Source: Phycisphaerales bacterium
GTDB taxonomy: Bacteria > Planctomycetota > Phycisphaerae > UBA1845
DNA length: 37,891 bases
Reading direction: 5' to 3'
Assembly: GCA_013140575.1 (NCBI GenBank)
Contig: JABFSN010000019.1
Location: 1-37,891, forward strand
The position numbers and the translations under genes were made by a program. How positions within the stretch are numbered: the first letter of the stretch is position 1; every line of letters starts with the position of its first letter. Below are positions 12,009-37,686 of the stretch, one piece after another. Under the pieces are notes generated by a model. The model made no database searches. It had not been told where the DNA came from and was given only the letters and a program-made list of their open reading frames with translations.

Positions 12009-12207
12009 GAAGCCCCGGCAGGGGCGTTCGTGGTCAGCCCACGGCGGAAGCCGTGGGAACCCGTAGAACAGCATCGACCCCAAGCCCCGGCAGGGGCGAT
12101 CGGGCCTAACCTCGGCCGCCCCTGCCGGGGCTTGAGACGGGAACGCGGTCATTCATTCCCACGGCTTCCGCCGTGGGCTAGTGACGGGCGCCCCTGCCGG
12201 GGCTAAT
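12009..12207. repeat. Composite palindrome: six hairpin modules in A-B-A / a-b-a order
   Basis: The 529 nt gap 11844-12372 is dominated by this array. Module A (GCCCCGGCAGGGGC) lies at 12012-12025 and 12084-12097, and in reverse complement at 12118-12131 and 12190-12203. Module B (CCCACGGCGGAAGCCGTGGG) lies at 12038-12057 and as its reverse complement at 12158-12177. Each module is itself palindromic, or nearly so. The left half (12009-12099) and right half (12117-12207) are inverted copies with matched module spacing, while the DNA between modules is not conserved. No gene or T-run is present. Nothing else recognisable occupies the gap. Confidence 0.9.
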
Positions 12208-16097: not shown

Positions 16098-16558
16098 CCC
16101 AGTGATCCGTCAATTCCGGCGGTCTCGAAGTGCCGCCGATACGCGTCGGGCGTGTACGTGTTTGGCGTCCCGCAGGGGCGCGGTGAATTTCGCCCGGCCC
16201 TTCGTACGTGTTTAGCGTGCGAAACGCGACATCAGAGCCGTGGGCGCAAGCCCACGGACGACGCCTTGGTGCGAAACCCGTCGCCGTTCCCTCACTGGGC
16301 TTGCGCCCGGTGCTCTGAATGGTGATGCCGTACGCTGGTCGTGTGTGGCGCTTTCGGGTGATGGGTGCACCGGTTGCCCGATGGGTCTGCCGCCCCTCCG
16401 GGGCTATTTCGCAGGCGTGACCGGTCCGGGGGCTAGCGCCCCCGGCTATTGACGGTCGCCCCTCCGGGGCTACCCGAAAACTCGACGGGCCGGGATTCGT
16501 TCACGAGGGACCGCGGGTCGGTTTCCCTATTCTCGCACGTAGACTACGGATCGCCGCC
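16098..16558. repeat. Intergenic palindrome cluster before folD
   Basis: No gene is seen in these 461 nt. They contain at least five palindromes: CCGTGGGCGCAAGCCCACGG (16238-16257), CACTGGGCTTGCGCCCGGTG (16293-16312), GCCCCTCCGGGGCT (16392-16405 and again 16458-16471) and CCGGGGGCTAGCGCCCCCGG (16426-16445). A short direct repeat, GTACGTGTTTRGCGT, occurs near 16157 and 16204. The elements resemble those at 12.0, 18.0 and 37.5 kb. The folD promoter presumably lies near 16500-16550, but no convincing -35/-10 pair was found. Confidence 0.8.
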
Positions 16559-22103: not shown

Positions 22104-23627
22104 ATGCACGCGATTTTGTCGAAACTCGGTTTGGAGAAGGTCAATCCCGGCGGATTCGACGGTCAGTGGCTCGGGTCCGGTCCGTTGCTGGACAGCGTCA
22201 GTCCCATCGACGGCTCCGTAATCGCCTCCGTAAGGCAGATCACCCCCGACGAATACGACCGCATCGTCGATCGTGCTTATCAGGCGTTCGAATCCTGGCG
22301 GATCGTGCCCGCGCCGGTCCGCGGCGAGACCGTGCGTCGGCTGGGCAACGCCCTTCGCGAATTCAAGGAGCCGCTCGGCGATCTGGTGACCATCGAGACG
22401 GGCAAGATCCGGGCCGAGGGGCACGGCGAAGTCCAGGAAATGATCGACATCTGCGATTTCTCCGTCGGGCTGTCCCGCCAGCTTTACGGGCTGACCATGC
22501 AGTCCGAGCGGCCGCTGCACCGCATGTTCGAGCAATGGCACCCGCTGGGGGTGGCGGGCATTATCAGCGCGTTCAATTTCCCGGTCGCGGTCTGGAGCTG
22601 GAACGCGGCCATCGCGGCCGTCTGCGGCGACGCCAGTTTGTGGAAACCGTCGAGCAAGACGCCGTTGACGGCCGTCGCGTGCACGCGCATCGCCGAGCGC
22701 GTCTGCCGCGAGACGGGGGTGGACCCGGCCATTTTCAGTCTGGTGATTGGCGGCGGATCGACCATCGGCGAGAAGTTGATCGGCGATCACCGCGTGCCAT
22801 TAATTTCGGCCACCGGAAGCTGCCGCATGGGCCGGCGAATCGCCGAGGTGGTCGGCAAACGGCTCGGCCGCACCATTCTCGAGCTGGGCGGCAACAACGC
22901 CATCATCGTCACCGAGCATGCCGACCTGCCGCTGGCCGTTCGGGGGATCGTGTTCGGCGCGGTGGGCACCGCGGGTCAGCGCTGCACGTCCACGCGGCGG
23001 ATCATCGTTCACGAGTCCATCCGTGAGACGCTGATCGAGCACTTGATCGCGGCGTACAAGCAGGTGCCGATCGGCAATCCGCTGGACGAGAAGACGCTGA
23101 TGGGTCCGCTGATCGATACCGGAGCCGTCAAGGACATGTTCGCGGCCGTCAAACGAGTTAAGGAAGAGGGCGGCGAGATTCTGTACGGCGCTCAGAAACT
23201 CGACGGGCCGAAATACCCCGGCGGGTGCTACGTCACGCCGTGCATCGCGGCCGCGCGGAACGAATTCGCCATCGTGCAGGAAGAGACGTTCGCGCCGATT
23301 CTGTATATCATCGGTTACAAGTCGTTTGAAGACGCCGTCGCCGTGCACAACGGCGTGCCGCAGGGCTTGTCGAGCGCCATTTTCACGCGCGATCTTCGCG
23401 AGGCCGAGCGCTTTCTGTCGGTCGTCGGCTCGGACTGCGGCATCGCCAACGTAAACATCGGCACCAGCGGTGCGGAGATCGGTGGGGCGTTCGGCGGCGA
23501 AAAGGAAACCGGCGGCGGGCGGGAGTCCGGGTCGGATTCGTGGAAGGCGTACATGCGCCGGCAGACGAACACGATCAACTACTCGACCGAACTGCCGTTG
23601 GCGCAGGGGATTAAGTTCGGCGATTGA
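22104..23627 (+). CDS. ALDH7-family aldehyde dehydrogenase (alpha-aminoadipic semialdehyde dehydrogenase-like)
   Basis: A full-length 507-residue aldehyde dehydrogenase. The general-base Glu is E260 in LELGGNNA and the catalytic Cys is C294 in GTAGQRCTSTRR. The NAD-binding region is normal (FNFPVAVWSWN, SLWKPSSKTPL). The C-terminal signature [20 protein letters not shown] plus TINYS marks the ALDH7/antiquitin subfamily, which oxidises 2-aminoadipate 6-semialdehyde in lysine catabolism. Substrate is inferred from the subfamily only, and no other lysine-degradation gene is present here. Its last ~100 bp are repeated at 24258-24371, after the DUF4160/DUF2442 pair. The start ATG at 22104 follows a GGACAGGTGACCC context, a fair ribosome binding site. 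Confidence 0.93.
   Translation: MHAILSKLGLEKVNPGGFDGQWLGSGPLLDSVSPIDGSVIASVRQITPDEYDRIVDRAYQAFESWRIVPAPVRGETVRRLGNALREFKEPLGDLVTIETGKIRAEGHGEVQEMIDICDFSVGLSRQLYGLTMQSERPLHRMFEQWHPLGVAGIISAFNFPVAVWSWNAAIAAVCGDASLWKPSSKTPLTAVACTRIAERVCRETGVDPAIFSLVIGGGSTIGEKLIGDHRVPLISATGSCRMGRRIAEVVGKRLGRTILELGGNNAIIVTEHADLPLAVRGIVFGAVGTAGQRCTSTRRIIVHESIRETLIEHLIAAYKQVPIGNPLDEKTLMGPLIDTGAVKDMFAAVKRVKEEGGEILYGAQKLDGPKYPGGCYVTPCIAAARNEFAIVQEETFAPILYIIGYKSFEDAVAVHNGVPQGLSSAIFTRDLREAERFLSVVGSDCGIANVNIGTSGAEIGGAFGGEKETGGGRESGSDSWKAYMRRQTNTINYSTELPLAQGIKFGD
23532..23627 (+). repeat. Left copy of ALDH 3'-end direct repeat
   Basis: Aligned without gaps to 24276-24371 (offset exactly 744), this 96 nt segment matches at 82 positions (85%, counted by hand). 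A weaker match (15 of 21) extends upstream to 23511. It covers the last 31 codons and stop of the dehydrogenase gene. Several changes are synonymous (for example CGC/CGT, GCG/GCA), so both copies appear to have been under protein-level constraint for part of their history. Confidence 0.93.
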
Positions 23628-24204: not shown

Positions 24205-24257
24205 GTGGAAGGGTGTTCGCGGGACTACGATTCGCCCTGAATCGGGTCCCGCCTCGC

Positions 24258-24371
24258 GGCGGCCGCGCGGCCGGCTCGGATTCGTGGAAGGCGTACATGC
24301 GTCGGCAGACGAACCCGATGAACTACTCGACAGAGTTGCCGCTGGCACAGGGGATCCGATTCGGCGATTAG
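24258..24371 (+). pseudogene. Orphan C-terminal fragment of an ALDH7 gene (right copy of repeat)
   Basis: This segment is open in frame to a TAG at 24369 and encodes [20 protein letters not shown] followed by [17 protein letters not shown]. That is the C-terminus of the dehydrogenase ending at 23627, with a few substitutions. Upstream of about 24255 the similarity stops. There is no start codon context and no rest of the gene, so it is a fragment. It lies 53 nt after the DUF2442 stop. It may be the original gene end displaced by insertion of the DUF4160/DUF2442 unit, or the remnant of a second ALDH copy. The gap 24205-24423 contains nothing else. Confidence 0.85.
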
Positions 24372-32298: not shown

Positions 32299-33177
32299 CT
32301 ACTTTTCAGACTCGATATGGCAGATGATCTTGTACAACAAACGGGCGGCCAGAAACTCGGTCACCACCTGTCCGGGCAGCGGCATCACCTCCACCACGTC
32401 GGCCGCGACGATGTTCCGCTCTGCCGCCACCAACCGCAGCAATCCGGTCACCTGATACCAATCCAGTCCCCCGGGCTCCGGCGTTCCCGTTCCGGGGGCG
32501 TAGGCCGGGTCGAACCCGTCGATGTCGATGGTCACGTAGACGTCGTCGCGAAGGCGATCGATGACCCCATCGACCCATTCGTCGGACGTGTGGCATTCGC
32601 GGGCGGTGACGATCTCGATTTTGTTCCGCTTCGCGAACCGCAGTTCGTCCCCGTCCACGGCGCGAATTCCGACGGGAACGACGTTGACGCCCATTTCCGT
32701 CACCCGGCGCATCACCGTCGCGTGCGAATACGCACTGCCCTCGCAGGTGTCGCGAAGATCGAGGTGGGCGTCGATCTGCAATACCGACAGACGCTTGTGG
32801 CGCGTCTTGACCGCCCGCACCAATCCACCGGTCACACTGTGATCGCCGCCCAGCCCCAGCAGGGTCTTTCCGTCGCGAACGATGCGGCGCGCGGCAAGGT
32901 ATATGGCGTCGTGCATCTCTTTCGGACCGGTGGCAACGCGAACCAGCGGGTCCAATGTGGCCACGCCGGCCTTGTAATAGCCGCGGAGCAGCTCTTCATC
33001 GAGCAATTCGACGTGGTGCGACGCGTCGATGATGGCGGCCGGCGCTCGCCGCGCGCCGGGGTTATAGCTGACGGCCGCGTCATACGGAATGGGCAGCACG
33101 ACGTAGCGCGCCGTCTTGTAGTTGCTGTAACGCGGCGGCAGCTCCAGAAAATTGTCATTGACGAATGAAGCGCTCAA
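32299..33177 (-). CDS. speB: Agmatinase-like ureohydrolase
   Basis: A protein of 292 residues of the arginase/agmatinase family. The dimanganese ligands are all present: H113 in GGDHS, D136/H138/D140 in DAHLD, and D218/D220 in TIDIDGFDP. The segment DLRDTCEGSAYSHATVMRR is of the agmatinase type rather than arginase. The family hydrolyses guanidino compounds to urea; the likely substrate is agmatine or aminopropylagmatine. It lies downstream of the arginine decarboxylase and DHS-like genes on the same strand, with a 96 nt repeat-bearing gap, so a shared polyamine pathway is likely. A TTG start at 33177 is used because no in-frame ATG precedes the conserved region. The gene symbol follows the family; the substrate is not proven. 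Confidence 0.9.
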   Translation of the reverse strand: MSASFVNDNFLELPPRYSNYKTARYVVLPIPYDAAVSYNPGARRAPAAIIDASHHVELLDEELLRGYYKAGVATLDPLVRVATGPKEMHDAIYLAARRIVRDGKTLLGLGGDHSVTGGLVRAVKTRHKRLSVLQIDAHLDLRDTCEGSAYSHATVMRRVTEMGVNVVPVGIRAVDGDELRFAKRNKIEIVTARECHTSDEWVDGVIDRLRDDVYVTIDIDGFDPAYAPGTGTPEPGGLDWYQVTGLLRLVAAERNIVAADVVEVMPLPGQVVTEFLAARLLYKIICHIESEK

Positions 33178-33205
33178 CGTTCAGCCCAATACGATTGTGC
33201 AGTCT

Positions 33206-33273
33206 GGTAGGACGGGTTTCACCCGCCGTTCGCCCGGACGATCCCGCACGCAAGCAGGCGGGTAAAACCCGCG
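33206..33273. repeat. Two palindromes between DHS-like and ureohydrolase genes
   Basis: GACGGGTTTCACCCGCCGTT (33211-33230) is a near copy of the palindrome in the 31934-31992 direct repeats. GCGGGTAAAACCCGC (33258-33272) is a related one ending just before the DHS-like stop codon. They could attenuate transcription between the two genes; no T-run is present. Confidence 0.75.
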
Positions 33274-34416
33274 TTACGAACTCTTCTTTTCGTAGATGCC
33301 GCGGTAGCATTTCTGGAATTCCTCGTTGTTTCGCGTGGCGTCGTGAAGCGCGTCGACGATCTCCGTCATGCGGGCCATCAGCCGCCGGACGGGACGCGGC
33401 TTATTTCGCACCAGCACATATTGGGCGATCAACGGCAACGTCAACGACGCACACGAATAGACGACCACGTTATTGACGTAGGCGTCTTTTAATTTGCCCC
33501 AGCTTCTCGCCTCGGCCGGCGTCGCGCCCGACAGACCGCCCCAGTGCGGCGAATCCGTGGTCAATTGCAGGAAATAGTCGTGTCCGCCCTTGGACGGATC
33601 GTTCAATATCTGGTGCAACGTCGGCTGCGTCTGCAAATAGAAATTCTTGGGTGACCCGCCGCCGATCTCCACCACGCCGTTTTTCTCGGCGTCGCGCACC
33701 AGCGCCGCGGTCTCGATTACGTCCAGCAAGGGGTTTAGCGGTAATGCCCGCTGAAACAGGTGCGGGACGATCAGATTCATGCCGATCGACGAATCGCCTG
33801 GCGACGACGTAAACACCGGAACATCGTTCCGGACCGCCGTCACCAGAAACGACTTGTCCGGACTCGGCGCCGTCTTCATCACCTCCCGACCCAGTGCCCG
33901 ATGCAGCGTCGCCGTCGAAAACGGTTCCGACGGATCAAATGCCCGTAACGCCTCCAGAATGACCTTGTCGGTGGCCATCAACGTCTTGTCATCGTGAATG
34001 AAGACGTCGTAGATGCGGGCCACGCCCTCCTCGGCCAATTCGTTGTCGTCCACCGCGAAATCGCCCTGCACCATCGGAAAATCATACGCCCGGTGCAGAT
34101 CGTGATAGATATTAGCCCCCGTGGATATGATGAAATCGACGAAACCGGCCTCGATCAACGCCGAAAACACCCCGCTCATTCCGATGGGCGTCATGGCCCC
34201 CGCGACGGTCATGCAAATCGTCGCCCCGTCGTCGATCATCCGGCTGAACAGTTTCGCCCCTTCCGCCAGCCGGCGGGCGTTGAACCCGCTGACCGCGTAG
34301 ACGTGGTCGATCAGGTCCGCTACCTGCTCGTTGCCGGCGAGCTTCAGCGGCTCGATGGTCCGGCCTGCCTGCCAGTCGCGCCCGGACGGACAGTTTTTCG
34401 ATCGGTGATGGGCCAT
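33274..34416 (-). CDS. Deoxyhypusine synthase-like aminobutyltransferase
   Basis: A protein of 380 residues of the deoxyhypusine synthase family. The NAD-binding wording STGANIYHDLHRAY (98-111), the FTSSPGDSSIG loop (202-211), and above all the lysine that forms the enzyme-imine intermediate (K308 in EARSWGKLKD) are conserved. The enzyme should therefore be catalytic. Classical DHS moves a 4-aminobutyl group from spermidine to eIF5A. Bacteria have no eIF5A, and related bacterial enzymes make homospermidine from putrescine or have unknown acceptors. Its neighbours, arginine decarboxylase upstream and a ureohydrolase downstream, place it in polyamine synthesis. The product (homospermidine, or an agmatine-derived group on some protein) cannot be decided from sequence. 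Confidence 0.9.
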   Translation of the reverse strand: MAHHRSKNCPSGRDWQAGRTIEPLKLAGNEQVADLIDHVYAVSGFNARRLAEGAKLFSRMIDDGATICMTVAGAMTPIGMSGVFSALIEAGFVDFIISTGANIYHDLHRAYDFPMVQGDFAVDDNELAEEGVARIYDVFIHDDKTLMATDKVILEALRAFDPSEPFSTATLHRALGREVMKTAPSPDKSFLVTAVRNDVPVFTSSPGDSSIGMNLIVPHLFQRALPLNPLLDVIETAALVRDAEKNGVVEIGGGSPKNFYLQTQPTLHQILNDPSKGGHDYFLQLTTDSPHWGGLSGATPAEARSWGKLKDAYVNNVVVYSCASLTLPLIAQYVLVRNKPRPVRRLMARMTEIVDALHDATRNNEEFQKCYRGIYEKKSS

Positions 34417-34533
34417 CCTATTTGTTCCGATGCGTCATCGGCTGAATCGTACGGCAGGAGCGACCGCGACTTGACGACCATCCACCCCGACGACGATCCC
34501 CTGTCATCGCCGGCGTCCACGATCCCGCGTGAT

Positions 34534-35088
34534 TCAACAACAGAAAACGGCCGCCGCCACGACCGTCGTCCACAGGCCGTTCTTGTCCCCCTCGGCCGTC
34601 TGAACCACCGCCCGCGTGTTCACGATCAAGCCCTTGGCCTTGTAGATTTCCCGACGCTCGTCGTACGCCGTGTTGGGGTCCAGCTCGATGCCGTGCGTCG
34701 TCGCCAGCATGGCCGCGGCCATGTCCTCGACCAGGTCGGAACATCTCTTGTGCGTCAGACCGAATCCGTGGTGCTCCGCCACGTAGCCGTAATTGCCCCG
34801 TTCCGCGGGGATGGCCAATCCGATCCCCGCACACGCCAGCCGATTGGGCTCGTCCGTTCTCGCTTCGGCGATCACGCAATGGGTGATGCCGCCTGCCGCC
34901 AGCTTCCGCAGTCCCGCGGACCGCGAAATCACCCGGCAATGCGGTGGATAGATGCTGCTGACCCGTACAAGGTTGAATTGCGCGACCCGCGCGTCTCGCA
35001 GCGCCTCCTCGAATGATTGCAGGCACAGCTTGTGCTTGCCGACACCCTTGGTGAAAAACATCTCCTTCGGCACAAGCTGATCTGCCAA
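34534..35088 (-). CDS. Pyruvoyl-dependent arginine decarboxylase
   Basis: A protein of 184 residues matching the archaeal-type PvlArgDC. The self-cleavage site is VSSIYPP (S44-S45), where the second Ser becomes the pyruvoyl cofactor after serinolysis. Family wording follows: HCVIAEARTDEPNRLACAGIGLAIP, YGYVAEHHGF, and the C-terminal TRAVVQTAEGDKNGLWTTVVAAAVF. It decarboxylates arginine to agmatine. The TTG at 35088 is used as start, with GGAGG about 9 nt upstream. The next gene on the strand is the DHS-like enzyme (117 nt gap), then the ureohydrolase. The 34417-34533 gap shows no feature. Confidence 0.94.
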   Translation of the reverse strand: MADQLVPKEMFFTKGVGKHKLCLQSFEEALRDARVAQFNLVRVSSIYPPHCRVISRSAGLRKLAAGGITHCVIAEARTDEPNRLACAGIGLAIPAERGNYGYVAEHHGFGLTHKRCSDLVEDMAAAMLATTHGIELDPNTAYDERREIYKAKGLIVNTRAVVQTAEGDKNGLWTTVVAAAVFCC

Positions 35089-37386: not shown

Positions 37387-37585
37387 GTGGCATGGCCCAC
37401 GCTTGCGTGGCCATGCCCGCACACCGCCGACGCTCCCCGTATCCGCACGTCCCCGCCCGCGGAGTCTCCCGTCTCCGGTCGCTCGTATCGCTTCGCTCTT
37501 CAGGAAGCCCCACTGGGGCGAAGGTCAGCAGCCGGGGGCGTCAGCCCCCGGATCCGTCACGCCCACCCCATAGCCCCGGAGGGGC
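37387..37585. repeat. Intergenic palindromes between tsaE and rph
   Basis: The 326 nt gap 37361-37686 has no gene. It holds GTGGCATGGCCCACG (37387-37401) pairing with the following CGTGGCCATGCCCGCAC across a CTTG-type loop; CCGGGGGCGTCAGCCCCCGG (37532-37551); and AGCCCCGGAGGGGC (37572-37585). The last is the reverse complement of the element at 16392-16405. The rph promoter is presumably here, but no clear -35/-10 pair was found. Confidence 0.85.
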
Positions 37586-37686
37586 GGCAGACGCCGGGTA
37601 TTCCGCATTCCGACCAACGGATCGCGTGAATCTCTCGCAACACGATGGACCGCCCGCACCGACTTTCCGCCGACCCCGCGCGCGTG

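Follow-up and report, generated by a model that had tools for sequence, protein, structure and literature searches.

A candidate homospermidine gene cluster headed by a pyruvoyl-dependent arginine decarboxylase in a Phycisphaerales genome

What might a deoxyhypusine-synthase (DHS) homologue produce when it is encoded between a pyruvoyl-dependent arginine decarboxylase (PvlArgDC) and an agmatinase-type ureohydrolase, in a bacterial genome that yields no match to eIF5A? We addressed this question for a gene trio in the window analysed here (37,891 nucleotides of contig JABFSN010000019.1), part of a draft genome of 5.05 Mb (completeness 96.5%); comparison of the DHS-like protein places its closest relatives in Planctomycetota, several of them labelled Phycisphaerae. 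Our reading, to which we assign a probability of about 0.68, is that the cluster converts arginine into sym-homospermidine with neither AdoMet nor PLP taking part (we infer from sequence comparison what the enzymes do, which of the last two steps comes first and what is finally made).

The gene trio and its genome

Read along the minus strand, the trio consists of the genes for PvlArgDC (34534-35088, 184 aa, TTG start), for the DHS homologue (33274-34416, 380 aa, SpeY or ‘homospermidine biosynthesis protein’ type) and for a SpeB-like ureohydrolase (32299-33177, 292 aa, TTG start), which are separated by spacers of 117 and 96 bases and preceded, on the same strand, by an XTP/dITP diphosphatase gene. 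The first-pass annotation had placed these three reading frames at 32299-35088 and had considered their catalytic residues intact; Pfam agrees with the placement, and the residues are confirmed by alignments (the sites of PvlArgDC and of the ureohydrolase being invariant in 15 operon members).

The first protein matches PF01862 (E 4.8e-54, 183 bits against a cut-off of 22.7) and TIGR00286 (113.5 bits, above the cut-off of 107), and its S44-S45 pair aligns with the processing serines of the M. jannaschii PvlArgDC (SS in 2qqd, SA in 1n2m). The Ser-Ser pair and the conserved Asn and Glu (S44, S45, N39 and E105) are the same in all 15 operon members, and we predict an arginine decarboxylase that is expected to process itself between S44 and S45. 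The ureohydrolase matches PF00491 (Arginase, E 2.3e-69) and the agmatinase model TIGR01230 (252 bits, above the cut-off of 174), and retains both metal-binding motifs, with the ligands H113, D136, H138, D140, D218 and D220 invariant across the same 15 members; it is thus a predicted agmatinase, whose presumed substrate is agmatine and not a longer guanidino-polyamine.

The remainder of the genome was surveyed by family profile searches of the 96.5% complete draft, on which all absences given here rest. These searches found no AdoMet decarboxylase (SpeD), no AAT-fold (PLP-dependent) arginine/ornithine decarboxylase, no agmatine deiminase and no eIF5A (PF01287); the sole alanine-racemase-fold decarboxylase is a diaminopimelate decarboxylase, and the sole PF01564 match, a 990-aa fused MFS/spermidine-synthase-like protein, falls far below the SpeE cut-off. 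The Sacchrp_dh family has two matches, one of which reads like a shikimate dehydrogenase (from its reading frame) while the second reaches 28 of the 800 bits asked for carboxynorspermidine synthase; a canonical homospermidine synthase, judged through this broader family, is therefore unlikely to be encoded. With no SpeD, none of these decarboxylases, no agmatine deiminase and no SpeE-grade match in the draft, the cluster is the only polyamine route detected. Of the AdoMet decarboxylase and spermidine synthase genes previously remarked to be lacking near the trio, the former was not found in the draft genome as a whole and the latter is represented there only by the fused protein; the assumption that the organism is devoid of eIF5A agrees with the draft as well.

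Some further features of these sequences are recorded here. The fused MFS/spermidine-synthase-like protein (locus L040, 451-3420, minus strand) bears a C-terminal TPR region, in a genome without AdoMet decarboxylase. The spacer between the DHS-homologue and ureohydrolase genes (33178-33273, minus strand) can fold into a strong hairpin with 16 consecutive pairs (-44 kcal/mol, z -3.1, with 0 of 200 shuffles equally stable), which is possibly a repeat element, an attenuator or another regulatory hairpin. A dispersed repeat, roughly 100 bases long, lies at 37489-37611 (plus strand) and 16385-16478 (minus strand) of the window, and 40 copies of it, mostly 75-87% identical, were scored in the genome (out of 119 candidates). 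Self-comparison of the window additionally revealed a long inverted repeat at 12011-12204 (75% identical over 198 bases) and a direct repeat pair at 23512-23625 and 24256-24369 (85% identical).

Family, tree position and pocket of the DHS homologue

The DHS homologue belongs to PF01916 (DS, E 1.6e-76), and its top NCBIfam model is NF001980, ‘homospermidine biosynthesis protein’ (407 bits, 43 below the curated cut-off of 450; next best model 247 bits); the relatives L018 and L031 surpass this cut-off with 519 and 521 bits. It scores under every deoxyhypusine synthase equivalog cut-off (247/434, 211/364, 200/304, 165/350 and 120/380 bits) and attains 165 of the 500 bits set for caldomycin synthase (CdmS, NF002699). 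Its AF2 model adopts the DHS fold (pLDDT 80.7, with lower values in the active-site loops), with DHS structures as all of its top PDB matches. K308, W306 and E302 correspond to human K329, W327 and E323 and are invariant across the clade; K308 is the expected imine lysine. Asp243, Asp316 and His288 of human DHS are absent. In the tree the protein falls within a large bacterial clade, which a branch with support of 99/96 divides from DHS and from the CdmS-type proteins, the latter constituting a separate, supported clade; haloarchaeal and human DHS lie elsewhere in the tree. A strict deoxyhypusine synthase was considered and ruled out, there being no eIF5A (no PF01287 match) in the genome.

Two candidate substrates were weighed, putrescine and agmatine. 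In Thermus thermophilus the DHS homologue CdmS couples two agmatines and the ureohydrolase SpeBap completes homospermidine (Kobayashi et al., PMC10981699), which is alike to the window in that a DHS homologue and a ureohydrolase would yield homospermidine starting from agmatine. Transferred to our cluster, such a route would have the DHS homologue join two agmatines into bis-guanidino-homospermidine (or agmatine and putrescine into aminobutylagmatine), after which the ureohydrolase would strip the guanidino ends to leave homospermidine; the order PvlArgDC, DHS homologue, ureohydrolase would suit it, and many DHS homologues adjoin SpeB. We compared the pocket positions in 135 homologous sequences (human numbering throughout; the CdmS-type set being defined by NCBIfam). 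CdmS-type proteins mostly have S106, S109, Q137, F243 and D292, whereas the window clade has A106, P109, H137, M243 (rarely L or I) and Q292, so that the signature at positions 109/137/243/292/316 reads S/Q/F/D/L in the former and P/H/M/Q/L in the window protein. The guanidinium-binding serine of the CdmS model (Ser67) is replaced by Pro77, and the Phe204-type position by Met. The acidic positions of the human enzyme that are altered in CdmS (to Phe204 and Leu286) are likewise hydrophobic in the window protein (M213 and L295), a resemblance that speaks for agmatine coupling. Set against it are the separate clade of the CdmS type (from which the window protein is also apart in model score) and the substitutions of the guanidinium serine and of Q137, F243 and D292.

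A further argument is furnished by homologues that adjoin agmatine deiminase (AguA; loci L108, L109, L116, L118 and L122), which have 42-43% identity to the window protein, share its P/H/M/Q/L signature and match its pocket except at position 110 and at the entrance positions 312-313 (D-T in these homologues versus H-W in the window protein, D-T also occurring in a SpeB-containing trio, L125). As the agmatine deiminase path leads to putrescine, this nearly identical pocket favours, if indirectly, putrescine over agmatine as the substrate, and makes the Thermus-like route unlikely for the window, if still worth keeping in mind. Support is not good for every branch that separates the window clade from the AguA clade, and among the compared homologues the pocket residues were not found to partition by partner gene (SpeB versus AguA). 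Asp243/Asp316 had been entertained as a marker of agmatine versus putrescine users and was dropped, given that S. solfataricus DHS lacks both; nor does Leu at 316 discriminate, being common to all bacterial forms compared and to S. solfataricus DHS. Somewhat more doubtful is a variant in which the DHS homologues of the window clade accept agmatine, by itself or together with putrescine, by means of a pocket unlike that of CdmS and the ureohydrolase acts on the coupled product; were it true, guanidino-homospermidine coupling would have more than one origin within the DHS family.

The DHS homologue thus probably makes homospermidine from putrescine. In the route that we propose, PvlArgDC would cleave itself at S44/S45 to generate its pyruvoyl group and decarboxylate arginine to agmatine, which the SpeB-like ureohydrolase would convert into putrescine and urea; the SpeY-like DHS homologue would then oxidise putrescine with bound NAD, carry the aminobutyl group as an imine on K308 and transfer it to a second putrescine, giving homospermidine.

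Recurrence of the trio in distant lineages

The first-pass annotation had called for a survey of how often the three genes co-occur. We collected 80 named relative loci with a DHS homologue, at least 11 of which hold the full trio (in one of them SpeB is cut by the contig end) and at least a further 5 of which have PvlArgDC beside DHS with no SpeB seen in the stretch examined; owing to contig ends, the trio counts are lower bounds. The 11 trio loci are spread over Planctomycetota, Patescibacteria (Portnoybacteria and Nealsonbacteria), Acidobacteriota and deltaproteobacteria, and Thermoplasmatota archaea figure in the group that has just PvlArgDC and DHS. In our sample of the phylum, the trio was present in two genomes (G228 and G001) and rearranged in two others (G284 and G130), while in Brocadiaceae (family f49, matched to Candidatus Brocadia pituitae) all three genes are present and mostly unlinked. 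Recurrence in several phyla indicates that the trio is not a product of chance. Moreover, the three proteins co-vary: their pairwise distances, compared over 15 trio loci, are correlated (0.55, 0.58 and 0.79; permutation p 0.0002 each). Mapping the trio label on the tree takes a minimum of two changes even if only the other labelled groups are set against it, which implies that the trio came together or was lost on more than one occasion. Co-occurrence is also seen at the level of genomes: among 294 of the phylum, PvlArgDC was found in 27 of the 40 with this DHS type versus 50 of the other 254, an odds ratio of 8.5 (p 3e-9, kinship ignored; 10 of 21 when counted by family).

This distribution bears on an alternative in which the pathway ends at putrescine (for which the first and third genes would suffice) and the DHS homologue lacks activity or degrades polyamines, for instance by cleaving imported spermidine; a DHS homologue has indeed been proposed as a spermidine-breakdown candidate in SAR11 (PMC8437039). 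We regard this as quite improbable in view of the catalytic residues that are invariant across the clade and of the retention of the DHS gene in the operon in distant lineages.

Relation to published polyamine systems

Clusters of SpeDA, SpeY and SpeB from several bacterial and archaeal phyla have been assigned to homospermidine (Li et al. 2023, PMC10407285). They resemble ours in that a pyruvoyl arginine decarboxylase is clustered with a DHS homologue and an agmatinase. They differ in the family of the decarboxylase: theirs is an altered form of AdoMet decarboxylase (SpeD), whereas that of the window is PvlArgDC (PF01862), a member of another family; the word PvlArgDC is absent from the main text of that article. 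In Anabaena, according to papers that cite Burnat et al. 2018, SpeA, SpeB and SpeY likewise turn arginine into homospermidine, again with a DHS homologue, with the difference that the arginine decarboxylase there is PLP-dependent (the likeness is one of pathway and not of compared SpeY sequences). Furthermore, sym-homospermidine is recorded in planctomycetes; Gimesia maris, which encodes SpeDA next to SpeY, has no other major polyamine. Taken together, the subfamily assignment (NF001980 as best model), the tree, the pocket residues, the absence of other routes in the draft genome and the published clusters of like composition (PMC10407285) support homospermidine, which was one of the two products first put forward for the trio; the other, an unknown aminobutylated or agmatine-derived compound, has lost ground, as CdmS lies in another clade with a different pocket and such a compound is not needed to account for the genes.

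The least probable explanation is derived from haloarchaea, where DHS and an essential agmatinase-like protein, within the same enzyme families (pyruvoyl arginine decarboxylase included), are proposed to serve IF5A modification (PMC5178350): by analogy with Haloferax, the DHS homologue would put an aminobutyl or guanidinobutyl group on a protein lysine and the ureohydrolase would act on the modified protein, against which stand the genome devoid of eIF5A, the operon devoid of any candidate substrate-protein gene, and a window protein that lies apart from haloarchaeal and human DHS, scores below all deoxyhypusine synthase cut-offs and lacks the human Asp243, Asp316 and His288. The haloarchaeal proposal raised in the first-pass annotation is real, and concerns a protein modification for which this genome offers no eIF5A.

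The trio had initially been treated as a surprise, yet its gene logic was already in print for the SpeDA/SpeY/SpeB clusters, and it is PvlArgDC as first enzyme that constitutes the variant. In open-licence full texts, the term pyruvoyl-dependent arginine decarboxylase together with homospermidine and agmatinase, or with deoxyhypusine synthase, was met only in reference lists (a description elsewhere is possible). We consequently regard the pathway as known in kind and its archaeal-type PvlArgDC as the unusual part, for which we found no description in the open-access literature. PvlArgDC would add a further non-homologous first enzyme (besides PLP-dependent arginine decarboxylase and SpeDA) feeding one downstream pair, in a compact and complete gene set from arginine to a triamine whose only organic cofactors, on the proposed route, would be NAD and protein-derived pyruvate, and which spans several bacterial phyla including the small-genome Patescibacteria. 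With this trio it could also be tested cleanly whether homospermidine synthases of the DHS family act on putrescine or on agmatine.

Three additional loci concern the CdmS type itself. Plasmid genes annotated as ‘deoxyhypusine synthase’ in Trichormus variabilis (L142, 3977-5017) and Sphingomonas parapaucimobilis (L143, 3911-4957) score 592 and 564 bits for caldomycin synthase, above the cut-off of 500, and agmatine coupling may accordingly be wider than Thermus; the plasmid copies, once intended to supply a cyanobacterial SpeY for comparison, were set aside on turning out to be CdmS-type. Lastly, in a genome of the same class as the window (L048, contig C19 of G278), a CdmS-type gene stands beside homologues of SpeD and SpeB, which makes a SpeDA-CdmS-SpeB cluster possible.
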